DNA of 35,280 nt from a virus. Under the pieces are notes generated by a model that saw only the letters and a program-made list of their open reading frames with translations, did not search any database and had not been told where the DNA came from. This document shows, in pieces, positions 391-16,966 of this stretch (the stretch's first letter is position 1; the number at the start of each line of letters is the position of its first letter). Position numbers and translations under genes: made by a program. The DNA is taken from positions 1-35,280 of IMG/VR virus record IMGVR_UViG_3300035661_000194; one strand, given 5' to 3'.

Positions 391-457
391 AGAATTAGGA
401 CCGCCTATTTAGACTAAGTGCGGAGATTAGTTGGTCCTAGGTAGTAGGACCATTTTT
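391..457 (-). promoter_or_regulatory. Switch-like inverted repeats upstream of holin
   Basis: Three copies of the same 7-mer or its complement lie here: TAGGACC at 396-402, GGTCCTA at 433-439 and TAGGACC at 445-451. The middle copy can pair with either neighbour. Pairing 432-439 with 445-452 gives an 8-bp stem with a 5-nt loop. Pairing 396-402 with 433-439, with CCGC 401-404 against GCGG 420-423, gives the competing fold. On the plus strand the short hairpin is followed by five T (453-457), as in a terminator. On the minus strand, which carries the genes, the longer fold would bury an AGGCGG sequence upstream of the 25-aa ORF and holin. The rest of the gap (317-477) also has ATTCGTTT/AAACGAAT arms. 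Confidence 0.5.
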
Positions 458-477
458 GCGATGGTTTTGATGCAATA

Positions 478-732
478 TTACTTATTCTTCTTTTGTTCGT
501 TATACCATTCAATCCAGCCCTTGGTGACATTGCGGCACTGGTAGTAAGTCGTATAGTTGCGAGCGATGACTTGCTCTGCTTCGCTTAACTTAGTCGTCCC
601 CTCTGGCACCATCTCAAGCACAGAGCATTCATGCATTAACACATCAGACTGTGAGGGCCATTCTCTAGATGTGTATTGCTGTGTAGCGCAAGCGGGTAGC
701 AGAGCAATTAGGAGTGTGAGGATGTATTTCAT
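478..732 (-). CDS. Outer-membrane spanin (Rz1-like lipoprotein, 84 aa)
   Basis: Encodes a short lipoprotein: M-K-Y start, hydrophobic h-region T-L-L-I-A-L, then the lipobox L-P-A-C with Cys15 as the lipidated residue. The mature part would be about 70 residues, anchored in the outer membrane and reaching into the periplasm. It follows the inner-membrane spanin gene with a 4-bp ATGA overlap (729-732). This is the usual order for a separate Rz/Rz1-type pair that fuses inner and outer membranes in the last step of lysis of Gram-negative cells. The mature part is polar (W-P-S-Q-S-D and W-I-E-W-Y-N) and less proline-rich than lambda Rz1. The call rests on the lipobox and the gene order. Confidence 0.8.
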   Translation of the reverse strand: MKYILTLLIALLPACATQQYTSREWPSQSDVLMHECSVLEMVPEGTTKLSEAEQVIARNYTTYYQCRNVTKGWIEWYNEQKKNK

Positions 733-1988: not shown

Positions 1989-2059
1989 GCAGTTCCAAAA
2001 GAAGTAGCGCAATAAGCATTAATGCTATTAGCATTACTATAAAGTATCAGTGTTTTCAT
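1985..2059 (-). CDS. Possible 24-aa ORF copying an internal polymerase peptide
   Basis: ORF from ATG 2059 to TGA 1985-1987, starting 3 nt after the polymerase stop and ending in an ATGA overlap with the next gene. It starts M-K-T-L-I-L-Y-S-N-A-N-S. From I-L-Y-S-N-A-N onward it is nearly the same peptide as polymerase residues 119-137, because the 53-bp repeat here and inside the polymerase lies in the same frame (offset 819 bp). It may be a coupling leader, a duplication remnant or a real micro-peptide. Confidence 0.3.
   Translation of the reverse strand: MKTLILYSNANSINAYCATSFGTA
1996..2048. repeat. 53-bp direct repeat, copy 1
   Basis: Matches 2815-2867 at 51 of 53 positions (differences at 2022 and 2042). 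It holds GTAGCGCAATA, then a self-complementary centre in which AATGCT pairs with AGCATT, then ACTATA. It lies just after the polymerase gene. A shortened inverted relative without the central 22 nt sits at 3230-3248. Confidence 0.92.
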
Positions 2060-2062
2060 TTG

Positions 2063-3220
2063 TTATACCCAACTAACCAAGCATACATCTTCAAGTATCA
2101 CTTCGCTTGTCTTAATCACAAACCCTGTTTGTTTTGCAATCAACTCGTTTAGTTCTGTTTGATCTACTTTCTTACTCGTAGTCCACCCGTCATGTTCAAG
2201 TATACATGAGTTACCAGACTCGCTAAGATACTCGCGCACCACATCTAACACCTGACGCTCTAGTTCGAAGTAAACACACCACTTGGTATGTGAACTGATC
2301 TTAGTCTCACGAGTAACTTTATCTCGCTTGTATCTGACACCTATTACTAGTTTGATCTTCTTCCACATCTTAGTGATGTCCTTCTTGAGGCCACAGATGA
2401 ATTGATTATTTGCGAGTGCTTTGTTCTTAATGGGGTCATTAACTTTTGCAGCAATTGATTTATCAAAGCGAGCACCCGCAAACATCGAAGTAATTACTTC
2501 TTTAATGATTTTAATATCAATACTGTAATGGGTTGCAAGTTCATTACGAACTGCTGATTTGTTATTCAAGTAATACGTGATGTATTGGGATGATTTGAGT
2601 CCGTGTTTGGTTGCGTATTGATACAGGAGGGTGGGTGCACATGCCTCAATGTCATATTCATAGGAATAGTTGTGTTCTGCATACAATTGCTGCTTTACTT
2701 CCTTCTTGAGGTTTTGCATATTGGTCCACAAACGATTCTTCTTATCGTTGTACGGGATAATACCAGATGAAAGCATGGGACTATATGCTTCACGAGCAAA
2801 TTCGAGTGCTAGTTCAAAAGAAGTAGCGCAATAAGCATTACTGCTATTAGCATTACTATATAGTATCTGCTTTCTCTTTGTCTCTTTGTGTTTGATGTCT
2901 GCTTTGATCGCAGTTATTAACTCATTAACACCCGCTGTATTCTTCTTATATGTCTTGCAGTAAGACGTAACAGTCTCTCTGCCTAATTGCTTTGCTATTG
3001 AGTTCTTGCTGAATCTGTAAGATGAATCGCAAACAATGAGACACTTACTCCTCAAGTAATCTGTTAGTGGGTTCCCTTGTTTACCAAAGACTTTATCTAA
3101 GTAATGCCTGCTGAGTTGTTGGGGTTTGGTCTCGGATACTTGGGCACACATAAACTTTAAGACTTTGAGGGTTCGTGAGTGAACGCGTTTATCAGTAAAT
3201 TCTGGCTGATAGTTATTCAT
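2063..3220 (-). CDS. Putative minimal palm-fold nucleic-acid polymerase (385 aa)
   Basis: Most likely the phage replicative polymerase, strongly reduced. Three motifs of the family A DNA polymerase / T7-type RNA polymerase fold appear in order. Motif A is Y-D-I-E-A-C-A-P-T-L-L with Asp190. Motif B is K-E-V-I-T-S-M-F-A-G with Lys240 and Gly249, the same K-x8-G spacing as in Pol I and T7 RNAP. Motif C is L-E-H-D-G-W with His343-Asp344. The A-B and B-C distances (50 and 104 residues) are close to those of Klenow-type enzymes. No 3'-5' exonuclease domain is visible and the protein is far shorter than normal family A enzymes. It could also act as a primase or RNA polymerase. A 53-bp repeat lies within the gene. 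The motif match is by eye, so the assignment is inference. Confidence 0.55.
   Translation of the reverse strand: MNNYQPEFTDKRVHSRTLKVLKFMCAQVSETKPQQLSRHYLDKVFGKQGNPLTDYLRSKCLIVCDSSYRFSKNSIAKQLGRETVTSYCKTYKKNTAGVNELITAIKADIKHKETKRKQILYSNANSSNAYCATSFELALEFAREAYSPMLSSGIIPYNDKKNRLWTNMQNLKKEVKQQLYAEHNYSYEYDIEACAPTLLYQYATKHGLKSSQYITYYLNNKSAVRNELATHYSIDIKIIKEVITSMFAGARFDKSIAAKVNDPIKNKALANNQFICGLKKDITKMWKKIKLVIGVRYKRDKVTRETKISSHTKWCVYFELERQVLDVVREYLSESGNSCILEHDGWTTSKKVDQTELNELIAKQTGFVIKTSEVILEDVCLVSWV
2815..2867. repeat. 53-bp direct repeat, copy 2, inside polymerase gene
   Basis: Second copy of the 53-bp repeat, in the same orientation as copy 1 and 819 bp away, a multiple of three. It encodes polymerase residues of about 118-136 (I-L-Y-S-N-A-N-S-S-N-A-Y-C-A-T-S-F). 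Two mismatches separate the copies. Confidence 0.92.
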
Positions 3221-3405: not shown

Positions 3406-3819
3406 TCAGATAAACTTGCCAACTTTGGCTGATATCCACAGATTGTAATATTCTGGACTATGGAGAACTTTACGATTTACCTGCTCATTAAGTTCCATAT
3501 AAGTCATTTCCGCCTTTGATTTGCAAAAATGGAGAATCTCTCTTTTGAAGTGTTGCTTTCCAAACTTGATTACATCACTATTTAACTCTTTGGATGAGCC
3601 ATAATAGGACTGCCAATCAGACTCCACTTTTATTTTAGTCGCCTTACGTTTCTTGTTTCCGTTTTTAAGTTTGACCATCTTGTAAGTGGTTTTGGTAAAC
3701 ATAGCGATCTTCTTACCTACGTATTTGCGGTTAGTGAAGGTACAAGTTATAAGGTAGACGAACCCGCAATAAGCGGGGTCGATTTGGTCTATTGGTTTAT
3801 TGAGGTAAGTCCAGTGCAT
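3406..3819 (-). CDS. GIY-YIG endonuclease, free-standing (137 aa)
   Basis: GIY-YIG family nuclease, probably a free-standing homing-type endonuclease. Visible motifs are G-F-V-Y-L-I (residues 19-24) and K-Y-V-G-K-K (32-37) for the two halves of the signature, a basic insert (K-N-G-N-K-K-R-K, 52-59), D-W-Q-S-Y-Y-G-S-S (68-76) as in many phage members, K-R-E-I-L (92-96), the metal-binding Glu region Y-M-E-L-N-E (107-112) and the closing Asn in Y-Y-N (124-126). No DNA-binding module such as NUMOD3 or an intron-encoded domain follows the catalytic part. Its place next to the polymerase gene is typical of phage homing nucleases. A role in host DNA degradation is also possible. Confidence 0.85.
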   Translation of the reverse strand: MHWTYLNKPIDQIDPAYCGFVYLITCTFTNRKYVGKKIAMFTKTTYKMVKLKNGNKKRKATKIKVESDWQSYYGSSKELNSDVIKFGKQHFKREILHFCKSKAEMTYMELNEQVNRKVLHSPEYYNLWISAKVGKFI

Positions 3820-7801: not shown

Positions 7802-7996
7802 ATGGACCTGTTTGAGCAAGCAAAGAATCAACTAATCATAGCAAGCCTATTTGCACAGATGCAAACACTAAGCGATGCTGTTGAGTCAGTTGATAGAAAT
7901 GATCCTAGACACGCAAGCATTTACTTGCGTTATATGTTACTAGAATTAGAACTTAAAGAAATTGTAAAGGCAATAGGAAATTATGAGCGAAATTAA
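7802..7996 (+). CDS. Unknown small helical protein (64 aa)
   Basis: Not recognised. It starts at ATG 7802 (M-D-L-F-E-Q-A-K); an in-frame GTG at 7796 would add two residues. The product is almost wholly helical with a leucine-rich C-terminal part (Y-M-L-L-E-L-E-L-K-E-I-V) suited to coiled-coil or helix-bundle contacts. The end overlaps the start of the following gene by 14 bp. Confidence 0.65.
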   Translation: MDLFEQAKNQLIIASLFAQMQTLSDAVESVDRNDPRHASIYLRYMLLELELKEIVKAIGNYERN

Positions 7997-8300
7997 GAAA
8001 TGGGGGACACCCAAGGGTGCCAGTTTTTGGCATAGACAAGTAGATGGCATTTTTGAGGAGATGAGATTAGATCCAGGACAACCACTACCTGACAATAGTT
8101 GGATCAAAGGTCACATTCCCAAGTCAGACGACGAGCGTGCTCGCATCTCCGCTACTAATACTGGTCGTGTTATGTCGCCTGAATGGCGTGCTAAGATGAG
8201 TGCAGCCTCGAAAGGTAAGCCCAAATCAGAAGCACATAAAGCAGCGATGAAGGCTGCTACTGCTGAGTATCATCGTAAACGTAAGGCAGGTGAGTTATAA
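7983..8300 (+). CDS. NUMOD3-type DNA-binding protein without nuclease domain (105 aa)
   Basis: The C-terminal two thirds consist of repeated NUMOD3-like units: S-D-D-E-R-A-R-I-S-A-T-N-T-G-R, then S-P-E-W-R-A-K-M-S-A-A-S-K-G-K, then S-E-A-H-K-A-A-M-K-A-A (about residues 48-95). NUMOD3 motifs are helical DNA-contacting modules normally found C-terminal to GIY-YIG or HNH homing nucleases. Here no nuclease domain is present: the N-terminal 45 residues (W-G-T-P-K-G-A-S-F-W-H-R) carry no catalytic motif. It may be a remnant or a working DNA-binding protein, perhaps a regulator. The only GIY-YIG gene of this genome, at 3406-3819, lacks such a module. Confidence 0.75.
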   Translation: MSEIKKWGTPKGASFWHRQVDGIFEEMRLDPGQPLPDNSWIKGHIPKSDDERARISATNTGRVMSPEWRAKMSAASKGKPKSEAHKAAMKAATAEYHRKRKAGEL

Positions 8301-9123: not shown

Positions 9124-12100
9124 TTACAATCTTATAGTGGTCTTTTCTACTACTGGTAATTGTATCGTAGTGTACACTGGCACATCGCTTACTGACAATG
9201 TACTGGAGTTTGTAACTTGCACTTTGCCACGAGTAATGAAGTCCTTGATTGTTACATAGAATGCAATCAGTACTGGAGCAGTTGTAATCCAACGAGTGAT
9301 AGCAGACACAATTGAACCAACAGTAGCACGTGACGCTATGTCCACAGCCTTTTGTAATGATGCAATAGTGGATGATGTAACATCCAGAACCAACTCAAAC
9401 AAATCTGACTTGTATGCTGTGGCAATGGACAAAGCAGATGTTATTATGTTGATGCTTTGGTTATATACAGCATTAGTAGTTGAAGTAACAGTATCAAAAG
9501 CATGAGCAAATAGTTTAACAATAGACCCTAATCCAGTTGTTACTGTGCTCTTAGTTGTAGTCATTGCTTTTTGTATGCTTGCATTGGATGCAACTAGTAA
9601 CTCAATCACCATCTCAAATGTCTCAGACTTGAATGCAGTTGATGTAACGATTACAGAAAGTACACTATTCATCGCCTTCTTAATAGTAGAAGTTGAATTC
9701 ACTACTACATTCTTTGTTGCATACATTGCTCTAGTAAACGATGTAGAGTTAGCAATCACAACATTCTTGTTCAGCAATGCTGCCTTACTACTATTAGCGA
9801 TACTAGGCTGTGCTAGAGATTGAGTCCAATTAATTACACGTTTGATATTAGCCACAGATCCAACGGATACCATTGCATTCACAAATTTAGTAAGAGTAGC
9901 ACCAGAGAAGAATACAGCATTAGATGCAGCGGTTACAAATTTAGTAAACGTAGATGCCTTCAACAAGATTGGAATCGCTGCGGATGACCCAATCTTTGCT
10001 GTTTGCATTACCTTTGCATTAGTTGCAGAGTTAGTTGATGCAAGTAACTTAGTAGTTCTAGTTGTAAGTTGCTTAGTAGTTGTATTCGCTACTGTTAAAG
10101 ATTTAGTAGCAGATACATTAGATGCTTTAGTAGCAGTTGACGTAGATAACAAACTCTTAATCGCATACATGAACTTAGTCAGTGTGGCAGTAGATGCCAC
10201 AGTAGCCAATGCAGTTAGATACTGAATTGCAATCGCAAGAATCGCAGCCGCATATCCCGTACTGATTGATACTGCTGATTTGGTAGGCTGTGCTTGAATC
10301 ACTTTAACGGAAGTAGACGCAGATGATGCAGACTTAGTATTGTTGACTGCCCATGCTTTGCTTGCTGCAGAAGTAGGTACTGCTAATCTCTTGCTATTGC
10401 TTTGGCGTAAGAAAGACATGATAGCCGTTGACGCAGCATTAACTACTTGCGTAAATGTAGTTCCTGACGGTAGTCTCCATGCTGACCACATAGGGTTAGA
10501 TCCTAAAGAAGTTGCTCCGGTTCTTGTTGTCCAAGTGATACCGTCCGGAGAGGTAGCAACCACAGTACTAGAAAAAACACCTGCAATAAACATTACTCCA
10601 TTCCATGCTACACCGGCAATCCAACGCCTTGACGTACCGTCCATTGTTTGGCTTGCAAAAGATACACCGTGGTTTGTTGATATAGCGCATGTAGATGATG
10701 AGTCTTTAACTGCAATAATAGTGCCTGAACCGTTACATGCAGAGTACCAATATGCACCAGACGGCATAGTGACTTGTGACCAGGTAATACCATCAGTAGA
10801 ACGAAGACAGCGAGTCGTAGTTGCTTGGTCGAATGTAACAAATGCTGTTCCTGTCCAGACAACGCTATTCCATGTTCCCGCGATAACACCGCTAGATCTT
10901 GTAGTCCAAGTAATGCCGTCAGGTGATGTTGAAAAATTAGCAGAGGTACGGGATACTGCCACAAATAATCCATTGCCCCATGTAACTGCTCCCCAGAATT
11001 GTGAAGCAATAGATGGTGTACGTGATGCCCAAGTGACGCCATCAGTTGATGTGTAAATTTCACCTGTCTGTGCCATCCCACAAAATAAATTAGCAACTGG
11101 ACTATATGCAATAGAGTACCAGTTCTTAGATACTGCTGTGCTATAGTTGGTCCACGTGATGCCATCTGTAGACTTACCTACAGTTGCGGTACCAATGCCC
11201 AATCCAATCCAATACGATCCATTATATGCCTTAGAATAAAATGCAGTAGGCATTGTTGCTGTAGCATATGCAGTTCCGTTAAGTGTATATTCAAGAGTTG
11301 TACCATTATGTCCGGAAACTAATTTTGTGTTAGTGACTGTATTACTAAACGATGCATTACTTCCTGGTGTAGCAGCCGCAATTGTAGGACGGTAAGTTAT
11401 ACTCAGAACAGTAGAACGTGTGCCAGTAGATGTTGCAGTAGCACCAGCATTGACTGTTAATAGTGAACCAAATACTTTTTGTCCATATACATACCAAAGA
11501 TTATACGTACCCGAAGAGAAAGTCCCACCAGTCCAGGTAATACCATCTGAAGATGTTGCATAGTGAGTAGCAGAATTGGTAGTTGTATACTCAACTGCCA
11601 GGAATAATCCAGATACTGCATCATACGATACATCACGCCACAATACATTGTATGGCATAGTAGCAGAATTCCAAGTAGTACCATTATCAGTAGAATACTG
11701 AGCAGAGCCACTAGTGAATACACAAACAATAGTTCCGCCAGAACCAGGGACAACCTTACAACCTACACCCCAAAAATTAGAACTAGCACCAGGGGGACTT
11801 ATAGTAGTCCAAGTTATACCATCAGTTGACCTAGATAAACTTGTTGCACAGTATGCAAGGAAATATAACCCGTTCCAGGCCATTTCCGTATTTCCCGTGG
11901 ATGCTAATGTTCCCCCGTTATTCCAGGTTAACCCATTATCTGTAGAATATACAGTACTGGTGTTTGTTTGGTTCATTGCAACCCAACGACCAGTCCTATT
12001 AGTGCCTATCGCAGCACCAGTTGGCATAGAAGTAGATAATGTACCGCCAGCAGTCCAAGTGGTACCATCAGTTGAATACCAACTCTGTGAGCCTGCTACA

Positions 12101-12378
12101 AATACAAATCTAATACCATCGCAGTCACCAGTTAAAACACCAGATGTACCAACAGACCATGTACGTGAGGTCCAGGTTTGCAAGTCAGTTGATGTGTAGT
12201 AAGTAGTAGATGACGATTTACCAGTTGCTACATAAATGCCATTAGATATTAATGGCCCAGTAATGGTCCAATCTGACGTCGAACCAGCAAAAGTTTTATC
12301 AGCAAAAGTAGATCCATTAGCAGTGTAAACACCCGTGCCATTATTGGAATATGCTGACGGCGCAATGAAAAAAGCCAT
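9124..12378 (-). CDS. Tail fibre/adhesin with Asp-box propellers and 18-residue repeats (1084 aa)
   Basis: Large virion surface protein, probably receptor-binding. Residues from about 40 to 630 carry some twelve Asp-box repeats (such as S-T-D-G-I-T-W-T and S-P-D-G-I-T-W-T), spaced about 40-50 residues apart and in two groups, as in sialidase-like beta-propellers. From about 650 to 1030 the sequence changes to low-complexity Ser/Thr/Ala/Val/Lys repeats with a clear 18-residue period over at least nine units (for example V-V-I-A-N-S-T-S-F-T-R-A-M-Y-A-T-K-N). The C-terminus (from about 1040) returns to a beta-rich end. No catalytic sialidase residues are apparent, so binding rather than cleavage is likely. 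The start overlaps the previous stop (TAATG). The paralogous 634-aa protein shares the Asp-box type. Confidence 0.82.
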   Translation of the reverse strand: MAFFIAPSAYSNNGTGVYTANGSTFADKTFAGSTSDWTITGPLISNGIYVATGKSSSTTYYTSTDLQTWTSRTWSVGTSGVLTGDCDGIRFVFVAGSQSWYSTDGTTWTAGGTLSTSMPTGAAIGTNRTGRWVAMNQTNTSTVYSTDNGLTWNNGGTLASTGNTEMAWNGLYFLAYCATSLSRSTDGITWTTISPPGASSNFWGVGCKVVPGSGGTIVCVFTSGSAQYSTDNGTTWNSATMPYNVLWRDVSYDAVSGLFLAVEYTTTNSATHYATSSDGITWTGGTFSSGTYNLWYVYGQKVFGSLLTVNAGATATSTGTRSTVLSITYRPTIAAATPGSNASFSNTVTNTKLVSGHNGTTLEYTLNGTAYATATMPTAFYSKAYNGSYWIGLGIGTATVGKSTDGITWTNYSTAVSKNWYSIAYSPVANLFCGMAQTGEIYTSTDGVTWASRTPSIASQFWGAVTWGNGLFVAVSRTSANFSTSPDGITWTTRSSGVIAGTWNSVVWTGTAFVTFDQATTTRCLRSTDGITWSQVTMPSGAYWYSACNGSGTIIAVKDSSSTCAISTNHGVSFASQTMDGTSRRWIAGVAWNGVMFIAGVFSSTVVATSPDGITWTTRTGATSLGSNPMWSAWRLPSGTTFTQVVNAASTAIMSFLRQSNSKRLAVPTSAASKAWAVNNTKSASSASTSVKVIQAQPTKSAVSISTGYAAAILAIAIQYLTALATVASTATLTKFMYAIKSLLSTSTATKASNVSATKSLTVANTTTKQLTTRTTKLLASTNSATNAKVMQTAKIGSSAAIPILLKASTFTKFVTAASNAVFFSGATLTKFVNAMVSVGSVANIKRVINWTQSLAQPSIANSSKAALLNKNVVIANSTSFTRAMYATKNVVVNSTSTIKKAMNSVLSVIVTSTAFKSETFEMVIELLVASNASIQKAMTTTKSTVTTGLGSIVKLFAHAFDTVTSTTNAVYNQSINIITSALSIATAYKSDLFELVLDVTSSTIASLQKAVDIASRATVGSIVSAITRWITTAPVLIAFYVTIKDFITRGKVQVTNSSTLSVSDVPVYTTIQLPVVEKTTIRL

Positions 12379-14542: not shown

Positions 14543-15069
14543 AGACTATTTCCCTTTGTAAATGCTGATGCAATATTCGTAACCAGTGCCTTAACCGCAA
14601 ATAAAAGTTTTTTTGCAGGAACTTTAATGTAAGCATGTGAATTAGAAACATCACTCAATGTAATGTAGCGAATAAAGTTTGCGTATTTCGCAAATGTTGC
14701 TTTAGTAACGCTCTTTGCAGTGATGCTTATTTCATACATGAAAGGCAGAGGCTTGCTCGACTTGAATGAATAACCATCGAATGATGTATAAAAATATTGG
14801 TCATTCTCAGCAATAGCAACTATGTTTACACTAGACGGATTTGGAAGCACACCGCCAACCCATGTTGTTCCGCCATTAAACGTGGAGTAAACTACATTAG
14901 AGTAAGGTGTACGTGTATCATATGCCTCATACAGATATTGTCCAGGCGCACCAGCAATGACTTTCCACTTAACATATGGTGGGTTAGTTTTCTGAATCCA
15001 GGTAGATCCATTGTAACTAACCGCAGACATATCACTGCCATCAACATAAGCAACAATGTTATTAGACAT
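14539..15069 (-). CDS. Short Asp-box fibre paralogue (176 aa)
   Basis: Starts M-S-N-N-I-V-A-Y-V-D-G-S at 15069, overlapping the end of the 634-aa fibre gene by 8 bp. It has a single Asp-box-like turn (N-G-G-T-T-W-V-G-G) and a C-terminal half with Lys/Ala/Thr-rich segments (S-V-T-K-A-T-F-A-K-Y and L-L-F-A-V-K-A-L-V-T), like short versions of the repeats in the 1084-aa protein. It may be a decayed or truncated member of the same family, or a small fibre tip subunit. Confidence 0.65.
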   Translation of the reverse strand: MSNNIVAYVDGSDMSAVSYNGSTWIQKTNPPYVKWKVIAGAPGQYLYEAYDTRTPYSNVVYSTFNGGTTWVGGVLPNPSSVNIVAIAENDQYFYTSFDGYSFKSSKPLPFMYEISITAKSVTKATFAKYANFIRYITLSDVSNSHAYIKVPAKKLLFAVKALVTNIASAFTKGNSL

Positions 15070-16966
15070 TTGGAATACCTACTCCAGGGCCAACACCAGT
15101 CCAGTTTGCACTTTGTGGCATGTAAATTCTATTCCAGTTTACACCATCAGAAGATGTTGCAGCCAAGTTAGTTGGACCGGCGGCTACGGCTGTAAATTGA
15201 CCCAACGCCCATGTAATACTGGTATAGTTAATGTTGTCAGGCATGTAATGCTGTGTCCAGGTAATACCATCGCTAGAAGTGGCACAAACGTTACTATTTG
15301 TTATTGCACAGAATACAGAACCATTCCGGGAAATAGCATTCCACCCAGCCGCAGTTGGCATACTACGTTCTGTCCATGTGATACCATCTGTGGATGTAAT
15401 GCATTTGTTAGAATTAGATGCAATACCAACAAAGGTAGATCCACCTGCAACTATTGCATGATATGCATTTGTATTAGGCAATGTACGTGTAGTCCAAGTT
15501 GCACCATCAGTAGATGTTGCTGCTTTACCATCTGTGGATAATGCTGCAAATATAGTTCCATTGTGCGCAATACCAGACCAAAAACTAGTTGTAGGCAATG
15601 TACGTGTGGTCCAGGTTGCACCATCTGTAGATGTTGCTGCGACTGCGGTATTGTTCTTAACACCTACCCACTTGCTTGCTGCATATATAATCGACCAAGG
15701 CTTCTTCCAGATTTTATTCACAAATGATAATATCGACGACGACGTTACACTGGCATTAGATGTAATAGAGGTTAAAAATATTTTGTCACTGAAAGTTATA
15801 GGACTTGCTGTCATTTCTCTATAGTAAGATGCAATCCTATCATAAAATGCTGCGGATATAGACAATGCTGCATCTACAAAAACTATCCATAGTTTACCAG
15901 CAATCGCGATTGCGTTCGATGCCGAGACACCTGTCCAAGTATTATTCATAAAAAAATTATTGCTACCGAAACTTAGTGACCTACCAGAAATAGTCCACTT
16001 AGAAGCCTTTGACATTACACTATTGGCGGTGCTATTTGCCATATTAGAGATGGGATTAATAGGTGCATTGTTCCCATATATAAATCCCGATCCGGTAACA
16101 TTAGGAATAGTTCTTGGTCCCCAGGATGTACCATCCGTTGAATGTAAGGCATTTCCGTAATCATCAGTAAGTAAAAATCCTACATCCTTGTCCCATGTAA
16201 CTTTGTTCCAATTTAAGTTAGACCCAGTACCAGGTGCCGTCGCGACGGTAACTTGTGTCCAGGTTGACCCGTTATTATTTGTATACCTAATAGCATCTTT
16301 CCAGGCTAAAACAACAATAGTCCCACTGCCAGATGCTTTATATTGGGCTGCCATTGAAAGATTAGGAAATAAAGGACTGCCTGAAGGACTATATGTATCT
16401 CCGGTGTATGGCATCGATGACCAGGAAGATCCGTCAGTTGATTTTTGTATGTCCGAAGCCGTAATAAGAAAAAATGACCCATTATAATAAATTGGCCCAG
16501 AGCCTCCTGTGGCAATTGCCGACGACCAGGACGTACCATTGTTCGTACTATAGCACGCTTGGCCATTCATCGACGCAATCCATCTGCCATTGGCATACAT
16601 TAACTGGTTAGGGGCAGATGATAACGTAGTATTTGCAACAGAAGAATAAGTAGTGCCATCAGTAGTTATATAAGCATTCTTAGTGCTATTAACGATCATG
16701 ATTCTAGTGCGGTCAGATGCTCCGACCCAGGTATTGGCACCTAAATTCCTGGATGTCCAGGATGTTAAATTAGATGAATATTCTACATTCGAAGCACCTA
16801 TCCCGTTAGGGCCATCATATCGAACGTAAATTCCGCTAGATGTTGGTCCAGCAATGCCACCATCAAGACTATTATTTGTTGTTGCAGTAGACCAATTAAT
16901 TCCATTAGAGGAATATGCAATTTTATTACCAGTGCCGTCACCTGTTTTTCCATTAACTATAATCAT
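15062..16966 (-). CDS. Asp-box repeat fibre/adhesin (634 aa)
   Basis: Starts M-I-I-V-N-G-K-T-G-D-G with AAGGA upstream. About seven Asp-box motifs lie in the first 300 residues (S-S-N-G-I-N-W-S, S-T-D-G-S-S-W-S and others) and five in the last 200 (S-T-D-G-A-T-W-T twice, S-S-D-G-I-T-W-T). A non-propeller linker of Ser/Ala/aromatic character separates them (about 300-428). This suggests two beta-propeller lobes binding a surface glycan or protein. Two DNA repeats of about 48 bp with a 117-bp (39-codon) offset (near 15478 and 15595) show recent repeat duplication. It is a paralogue of the 1084-aa fibre and the C-terminus of the hub protein. A receptor-binding role is inferred. Confidence 0.8.
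   Translation of the reverse strand: MIIVNGKTGDGTGNKIAYSSNGINWSTATTNNSLDGGIAGPTSSGIYVRYDGPNGIGASNVEYSSNLTSWTSRNLGANTWVGASDRTRIMIVNSTKNAYITTDGTTYSSVANTTLSSAPNQLMYANGRWIASMNGQACYSTNNGTSWSSAIATGGSGPIYYNGSFFLITASDIQKSTDGSSWSSMPYTGDTYSPSGSPLFPNLSMAAQYKASGSGTIVVLAWKDAIRYTNNNGSTWTQVTVATAPGTGSNLNWNKVTWDKDVGFLLTDDYGNALHSTDGTSWGPRTIPNVTGSGFIYGNNAPINPISNMANSTANSVMSKASKWTISGRSLSFGSNNFFMNNTWTGVSASNAIAIAGKLWIVFVDAALSISAAFYDRIASYYREMTASPITFSDKIFLTSITSNASVTSSSILSFVNKIWKKPWSIIYAASKWVGVKNNTAVAATSTDGATWTTRTLPTTSFWSGIAHNGTIFAALSTDGKAATSTDGATWTTRTLPNTNAYHAIVAGGSTFVGIASNSNKCITSTDGITWTERSMPTAAGWNAISRNGSVFCAITNSNVCATSSDGITWTQHYMPDNINYTSITWALGQFTAVAAGPTNLAATSSDGVNWNRIYMPQSANWTGVGPGVGIPNV

Follow-up and report, generated by a model that had tools for sequence, protein, structure and literature searches.

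A small family A-fold polymerase of tailed phages with direct repeats around its core, and its possible role in starting genome replication

The stretch of viral DNA analyzed here (the window) comprises the 35,280 nucleotides of IMG/VR record IMGVR_UViG_3300035661_000194. The 127-bp direct repeat at its ends is consistent with a complete genome, and its genes for terminase, portal, major head protein, tail proteins and endolysin are those of a tailed phage. A 385-aa ORF with an ATG start occupies positions 2063-3220, the coordinates at which the initial annotation had placed a putative polymerase, and lies on the minus strand, the plus-strand frame there being riddled with stops. The features of this locus are as follows.

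2063..3220, minus strand: gene for a predicted mini family A-fold polymerase of 385 aa (ORF, alignment, model and fold matches)
2882..3220, minus strand: N-terminal domain, residues 1-113, with a winged-helix-like succession of helices and strands (predicted secondary structure)
2815..2879, minus strand: internal copy of a 65-bp direct repeat, encoding a low-confidence linker at about residues 114-136
2084..2833, minus strand: predicted polymerase core, residues 130-379, with thumb-like helix, beta-hairpin, palm and fingers (model and alignment to T7 DNA polymerase)
2732..2734, minus strand: Arg163 in the predicted beta-hairpin, invariant and paired by HMM with the TGR arginine of Pol I
2651..2653, minus strand: motif A Asp190; Ala195, at +5, aligns with Klenow Glu710 (sugar gate)
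2501..2503, minus strand: motif B Lys240, with Gly249 at 2474-2476
2189..2194, minus strand: motif C His343-Asp344, located at a predicted beta-hairpin turn
1996..2060, minus strand: 3′ copy of the 65-bp direct repeat, immediately past the stop codon
4209..6083, minus strand: SF2 helicase-like protein of 624 aa, three genes upstream of the polymerase (DEAD E=1e-3)

Consistent with the earlier claim that this protein is the only polymerase candidate in a complete genome, no DNA_pol_A, DnaB or other polymerase family, including B and C, was found among the window proteins. The initial annotation had also placed the polymerase in a module with an SF2 helicase. The neighbor is real in the window, where its DEAD match lies below the Pfam cut-off, but the module is not conserved, as the ResIII helicase profile is found in 2 of 27 family records, the window (G000) and, weakly, G023. 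DNA_pol_A (PF00476) is present in 0/27 family records and DnaB_C in 0/13. Two relatives of about 35 kb, G013 and G004, also possess terminal repeats (109 bp and 153 bp, respectively). No second replication enzyme was found among their scanned ORFs, in a scan that divergent or small replication proteins could escape, and the P-loop ORFs longer than 150 aa amounted to just the terminase in G013, with none flagged in G004. Elsewhere in the window, a SegE-like GIY-YIG endonuclease, possibly a homing endonuclease, is encoded directly upstream of the polymerase (3406-3819; Pfam E 8e-31), and a short protein matching part of homing endonucleases lies in a small plus-strand gene group (7983-8300). In addition, SSDGITWT-type repeats are numerous in two tail proteins (9124-12378 and 15062-16966), and at the DNA level 9-14 related copies are present.

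The 385-aa protein has no match in Pfam, PHROGs or PDB sequences by direct sequence and profile searches, and a search for related viral loci with this protein by itself returned nothing. Its relatives were reached through a single tblastn match among 50,697 phage records (E=10), to a hypothetical protein of 617 aa from Vibrio jumbo phage GR11A. In a pairwise comparison with the window protein, the GR11A protein contains the three motifs in order (E 8e-6), and it leads to proteins of phage GR7B and of Alexandravirus phages of Erwinia and Dickeya. The jumbo-phage alignment recovered four IMG/VR contigs with close relatives and, from these, 46 viral loci; the same chain led to four bacterial genome contigs from Caballeronia, Janthinobacterium and Xenophilus, two of them from one Xenophilus strain. 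About twenty further contigs were added by searching with the N-terminal domain only. In total, about 57 relatives were analyzed, belonging to small tailed phages and three prophage-bearing bacteria, and these bear out the earlier suggestion of a divergent polymerase group, one that lies beyond standard profiles. Among 369 genomes of the Caballeronia host's class, just the known prophage was found. Three of the recovered loci have features of their own. The Janthinobacterium prophage copy (L055:7965-9332) has a C-terminal extension and totals 455 aa; in L047/L148 (IMGVR 3300032239_000321) the polymerase ORF is split into 229 and 166 aa with both repeat copies intact; and the jumbo-phage polymerase relatives at L003:3038-4891 and L007:4983-6839 lie directly upstream of RNase HI, a neighborhood that suggests processing of RNA-DNA hybrids.

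The family proteins are 342-468 aa long. In the window protein, D190 lies within YDIEACAPT, K240 and G249 form K-x8-G, and H343-D344 lies within EHDGW. In an alignment of 39 sequences, R163, Q169, Y189-D190-I191, R225, K240, G249, Y317, E321 and E342-H343-D344-G345 are invariant, so the motif residues are not chance. The catalytic residues had been placed correctly from the start, and the Klenow-like spacing proposed for motifs A, B and C agrees with the alignment, where the three occur in order with mostly 50-64 residues between A and B and 97-114 between B and C. In the wider member set, the residue before HD can also be I, V or L (I/V/L-HD-G/A), while HD itself is kept. Position 236, four residues before the invariant K240, is variable and Arg is absent there; R225 is invariant elsewhere in the 39-sequence alignment. 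No nuclease domain was matched in the family proteins, in line with the described lack of an exonuclease. We also considered motif A as a family B motif (DxxSLYPS-like), but the HD of motif C and the fold matches, all of them family A, spoke against it.

Structure prediction and a fold search had been named as the check on the polymerase assignment, a fold without a palm being the adverse outcome; they returned palm and fingers of superfamily A. An AlphaFold2 model built from the 39-sequence alignment has a pLDDT of 86.6 and a pTM of 0.82, compared to a useless pLDDT of 37 for single-sequence prediction of the same protein. The top Foldseek matches of the model are exclusively family A polymerases, Klenow, Bst and Taq (E 2e-4). 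VIA-align superposes residues 131..379 on 391..702 of T7 DNA polymerase (Z 12.7, 238 residues, 4.2 Å), and further fold matches are Pol theta (Z 12.5), PolG (11.8) and yeast mitochondrial RNA polymerase (11.4). Against a viral structure library, virophage helicase/primase/polymerase proteins, which are TV-Pols, rank highest among the named matches. Within the model, D190 closes the strand 187-191 and H343-D344 sits in a beta-turn between strands 339-341 and 345-348, a palm-like arrangement. A beta-hairpin of strands 158-160 and 163-165 carries the invariant R163, and the predicted helices 95-113 and 130-152 are a candidate for a TV-Pol-type thumb of two antiparallel helices. The modeled fold thus makes a genuine family A-fold polymerase a well-supported reading of the 385-aa protein. 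The N-terminal domain is joined to a polymerase in 18/18 complete ORFs from the N-domain search. It has no sequence match to any DNA-binding family, and the pattern of predicted helices and strands would fit a winged helix.

To place the family within superfamily A, profiles were compared by hhalign with divPolA2 and its relatives, Ma-LMM01 gp030, Pol I from 30 genomes, T7 DNAP and T7 RNAP; E-values refer to single comparisons, and column-shuffled profiles served as controls, with best control scores of 19-23. From its transposase neighbor and its motifs, we infer that gp030 is the TV-Pol of Microcystis phage Ma-LMM01, and this protein represents TV-Pol in the comparison. The family aligns with the jumbo-phage group at a score of 48.2 (E 2.5e-5; best of 20 shuffled controls 21), and the jumbo group aligns in turn with gp030 (59.1, E 4.7e-7). 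By itself, the family scores 29.7 against divPolA2 (E 0.007), a weak 29.2 against gp030 (controls 23) and 26.6 against Pol I (controls 21.3), and the merged profile reaches 43.9 against divPolA2 (controls 20.7, E 6.4e-5). The merged profile also pairs R163..QN..D190IEACA with TGR..LQN..DYSQIE, and EHDGW with VHDEL, of Pol I. With T7 RNAP, represented by a single sequence, the family is unrelated at this level (E 0.33). The profile search proposed earlier thus tied this divergent group to jumbo-phage proteins, but the PF00476 (DNA polymerase I family) profile itself does not match the family proteins. A search for divPolA2 in viral contigs starting from one protein returned nothing, as did an uninformative search for the Ma-LMM01 protein in 398 genomes of its phylum. 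Because these scores link the family to the others via the jumbo-phage proteins, we view it, on sequence grounds, as a probable new, previously unnamed subfamily near the TV-Pol/divPolA2 part of superfamily A. Iyer, Abhiman and Aravind defined TV-Pol in 2008 as a minimal superfamily A group of 400-600 aa, a predicted primase-polymerase that includes the N-terminus of Sputnik V13 (PMC2579912). The divPolA2 of phages, reported in 2024, has about 430 aa and lacks a normal thumb and exonuclease, its function as DNAP or RNAP being unknown (PMC11348598). The description of the window protein as far smaller than known family A enzymes was too strong given these published sizes.

The sugar gate distinguishes the family further. 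The residue five positions after D190 (A195), where hhalign puts Pol I Glu710, is Ala in 37/39 sequences, and the family does not show the Pol I pattern of Glu at the sugar gate (E710) together with R754. T7 RNAP has Gly542 at this position. The sugar-gate Glu is kept in divPolA2 P0007, and likewise in CcPol (PMC7581432). As aligned, Ala195 at the sugar gate predicts that ribonucleotides are tolerated.

The most distinctive feature of the locus, which the initial annotation had missed, is the pair of direct repeats flanking the polymerase core. In the window, the 65-bp copies are 89% identical, with a 53-bp core at 96%, and are spaced 819 bp apart. Relatives show the same arrangement, with repeats of 20-77 bp at 90-100% identity and a spacing of 757-958 bp. 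No more than about 110 bp separate the second copy from the stop, and this copy is read as a C-terminal tail in some members but not in others. Given this variable translation of the 3′ copy, and a spacing that is not always a multiple of three, it is the DNA and not the protein that is conserved. Other members have their copies arranged in tandem at the 3′ end; three copies are present in L008, and in L144 the first copy lies upstream of the gene. Under a fixed criterion, repeats occur at 24 of 37 family genes, compared to 2 of the 136 remaining ORFs with 250 aa or more on those contigs (Fisher p 6e-18, a value that overstates independence because family members are related). Five loci found after this count have repeats as well. 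The repeats are present on deep tree branches, including that of the window and L008, and the paired or tandem form occurs in 33/57 members, leaving about 24/57 tree members with no repeat by the criterion used. Genes of the jumbo-phage group, Ma-LMM01 gp030 and divPolA2 have no repeats.

Distant members share the core ACCCTAKTGTAnnACAAGTC. The core CCCTAKTGTATTACAAGTC is found in ten viral contigs, nine times beside a member gene and once cut by a contig end. Checked complete genomes with the pair contain exactly two copies, and some without the pair retain a single 3′ core; in G012 (L024/L142), a perfect 3′ core CCCTAGTGTATTACAAGTC is kept and the internal copy is absent. There is no clear enrichment of DnaA boxes (9, with 5.6 expected), and Rfam searches of the window and four loci returned nothing. 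The identity between the two repeat copies is long and specific to each genome, which suggests that one is copied from, or converted by, the other. We have not found this repeat architecture at a polymerase gene described.

Taken together, we tentatively propose that the family is a minimal, exonuclease-less polymerase that starts and performs genome replication in small (33-40 kb) tailed phages. The parts of this proposal differ in strength. Judged by its sequence and model, the protein is very probably catalytically active, and it probably has a role in replication; the repeats may be an origin or iterons, which is plausible without being the safer bet, and primase activity with ribonucleotides is a still more tentative suggestion. 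The homology, the fold, the invariant residues, the small sugar-gate residue and the restriction of the repeats to this gene are the starting points from which repeat binding, priming and origin function are proposed. Mechanistically, the N-terminal domain would bind the direct-repeat element at the 3′ end of its own gene and, in the majority of repeat-bearing members, also the intragenic copy in the linker ahead of the core. The polymerase core, delivered to the opened strand, would then make a primer and extend it with host help, perhaps assisted in the window phage by the SF2 helicase. Against an origin, the genome-specific identical stretch of 45-77 bp exceeds a typical iteron, and a spacing of 757-958 bp is wide. 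The members and more distant relatives without repeats, the DnaA-box count and the lack of a DNA-binding match for the N-terminal domain also weigh against the proposal. A bolder version, which we regard as rather doubtful, is a self-contained replicon protein in which one small family A enzyme recognizes its own part-intragenic origin, primes and copies the genome, while concerted evolution keeps the two origin copies identical. A family A initiator-primase-polymerase of this kind was not found in the literature searched.

Several alternatives assign the enzyme or its repeats to other work. A single-subunit RNA polymerase that serves phage transcription, resembling a pared-down T7 RNA polymerase, would fit the small sugar-gate residue, the mitochondrial RNAP among the fold matches, and the small tailed phages with terminal repeats in which no other polymerase was found. 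We nevertheless consider it unlikely, since the repeat core occurs only twice per checked complete genome, both times at the polymerase gene, which is no promoter set; the protein also lacks both profile similarity to the single T7 RNAP sequence compared and space for a T7-sized promoter-recognition domain. Somewhat more credible, though still improbable in our judgment, is a DNA polymerase that extends primers during repair or as replication is completed, with repeats that serve, for example, gene regulation. Published precedents exist, as divPolA2 has been read as a repair DNAP or an RNAP (PMC11348598) and CcPol alone just extends primers (PMC10061031). However, divPolA2 phages encode a regular polymerase too (PMC11348598), whereas none was found here in the 27 family records searched with PF00476, and the family has Ala at the sugar gate where divPolA2 P0007 and CcPol have Glu.

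The repeats could also mark the boundaries of a polymerase cassette that is mobile or can be excised, as a duplicated target or LTR-like sequence, so that the domain is lost, gained or copied. They bracket the polymerase domain, are homogenized within each genome and differ between genomes, and tolerate shifts of frame, altered stop codons and, in L144, even placement upstream of the gene. The extended genome-specific match between copies keeps this model alive, but its probability is low: no empty site was found, the N-terminal domain stays attached to the polymerase in every complete ORF counted above, other members have tandem copies solely downstream, and the core pattern appears in viral contigs only beside the polymerase gene or once at a contig cut. 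Two near-identical copies beside a polymerase, one of them at the 3′ end of the gene, also recall the template and variable copies of a diversity-generating arrangement. This is very improbable, as mismatches between copies are few (24/807) and not concentrated at adenines, and the enzyme is no reverse transcriptase.

Phages of about 35 kb often seem to bring no replication enzymes. Our analysis indicates that some such phages carry a tiny superfamily A polymerase overlooked by standard profile libraries, and consequently that their replication strategies are under-annotated. The family extends the TV-Pol/divPolA2 group toward a minimal polymerase core, for which the sugar gate predicts use of ribonucleotides. 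Should the repeats prove to be an origin, recognition, priming and synthesis would be joined in one protein of 342-468 aa. If true, this would be useful for minimal replication systems and would bear on the question of primase origin from family A polymerases.

The proposed arrangement has analogs among unrelated initiators. ColE2 Rep, an AEP primase, has its origin directly 3′ of the initiator gene, and lambda O, a non-enzymatic initiator, has its origin inside the gene; a repeat at the 3′ end or within the gene is the likeness, and it is an analogy only, as these proteins are unrelated to the family. Among polymerases, TV-Pol shares with the family an exonuclease-less minimal core, a beta-hairpin with an invariant Arg, two catalytic Asp residues and a setting in viruses or mobile elements, and the strings YDxxxCxxT, K..xNGARL and HDG align with gp030. 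However, the family has its own N-terminal domain and direct repeats and lacks the RxxxK arginine at K-4, and because RxxxK is absent from the fingers we do not file it as TV-Pol proper. A D5/S3H helicase was also not seen in the family (P-loop scan, ten records), whereas the window has an SF2-like helicase. The divPolA2 of barbaviruses, ICP1-like phages and Vibrio phages is likewise phage-encoded and exonuclease-less, with an intact palm and an N-terminal globular domain in place of the normal thumb. It differs in that P0007 (430 aa) has FDE instead of HD as motif C, and keeps the sugar-gate Glu, and in that divPolA2 lacks repeats and coexists with a regular DNAP. The GR11A/GR7B and Alexandravirus proteins (e.g. 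QJT71104.1) have the same R...Q...D...K...HDG series, but are 525-618 aa long, belong to jumbo phages, have no repeats and, in the Vibrio phages, neighbor RNase HI. CcPol-MP of SCC elements primes (PMC7581432), and offers a precedent for an A-family polymerase acting as primase whose operon helicase binds motifs beside its own gene (PMC7581432, PMC10061031); in contrast to the family, it requires an MP/SSB partner, keeps E174 and F225, and retains a partial exonuclease domain.
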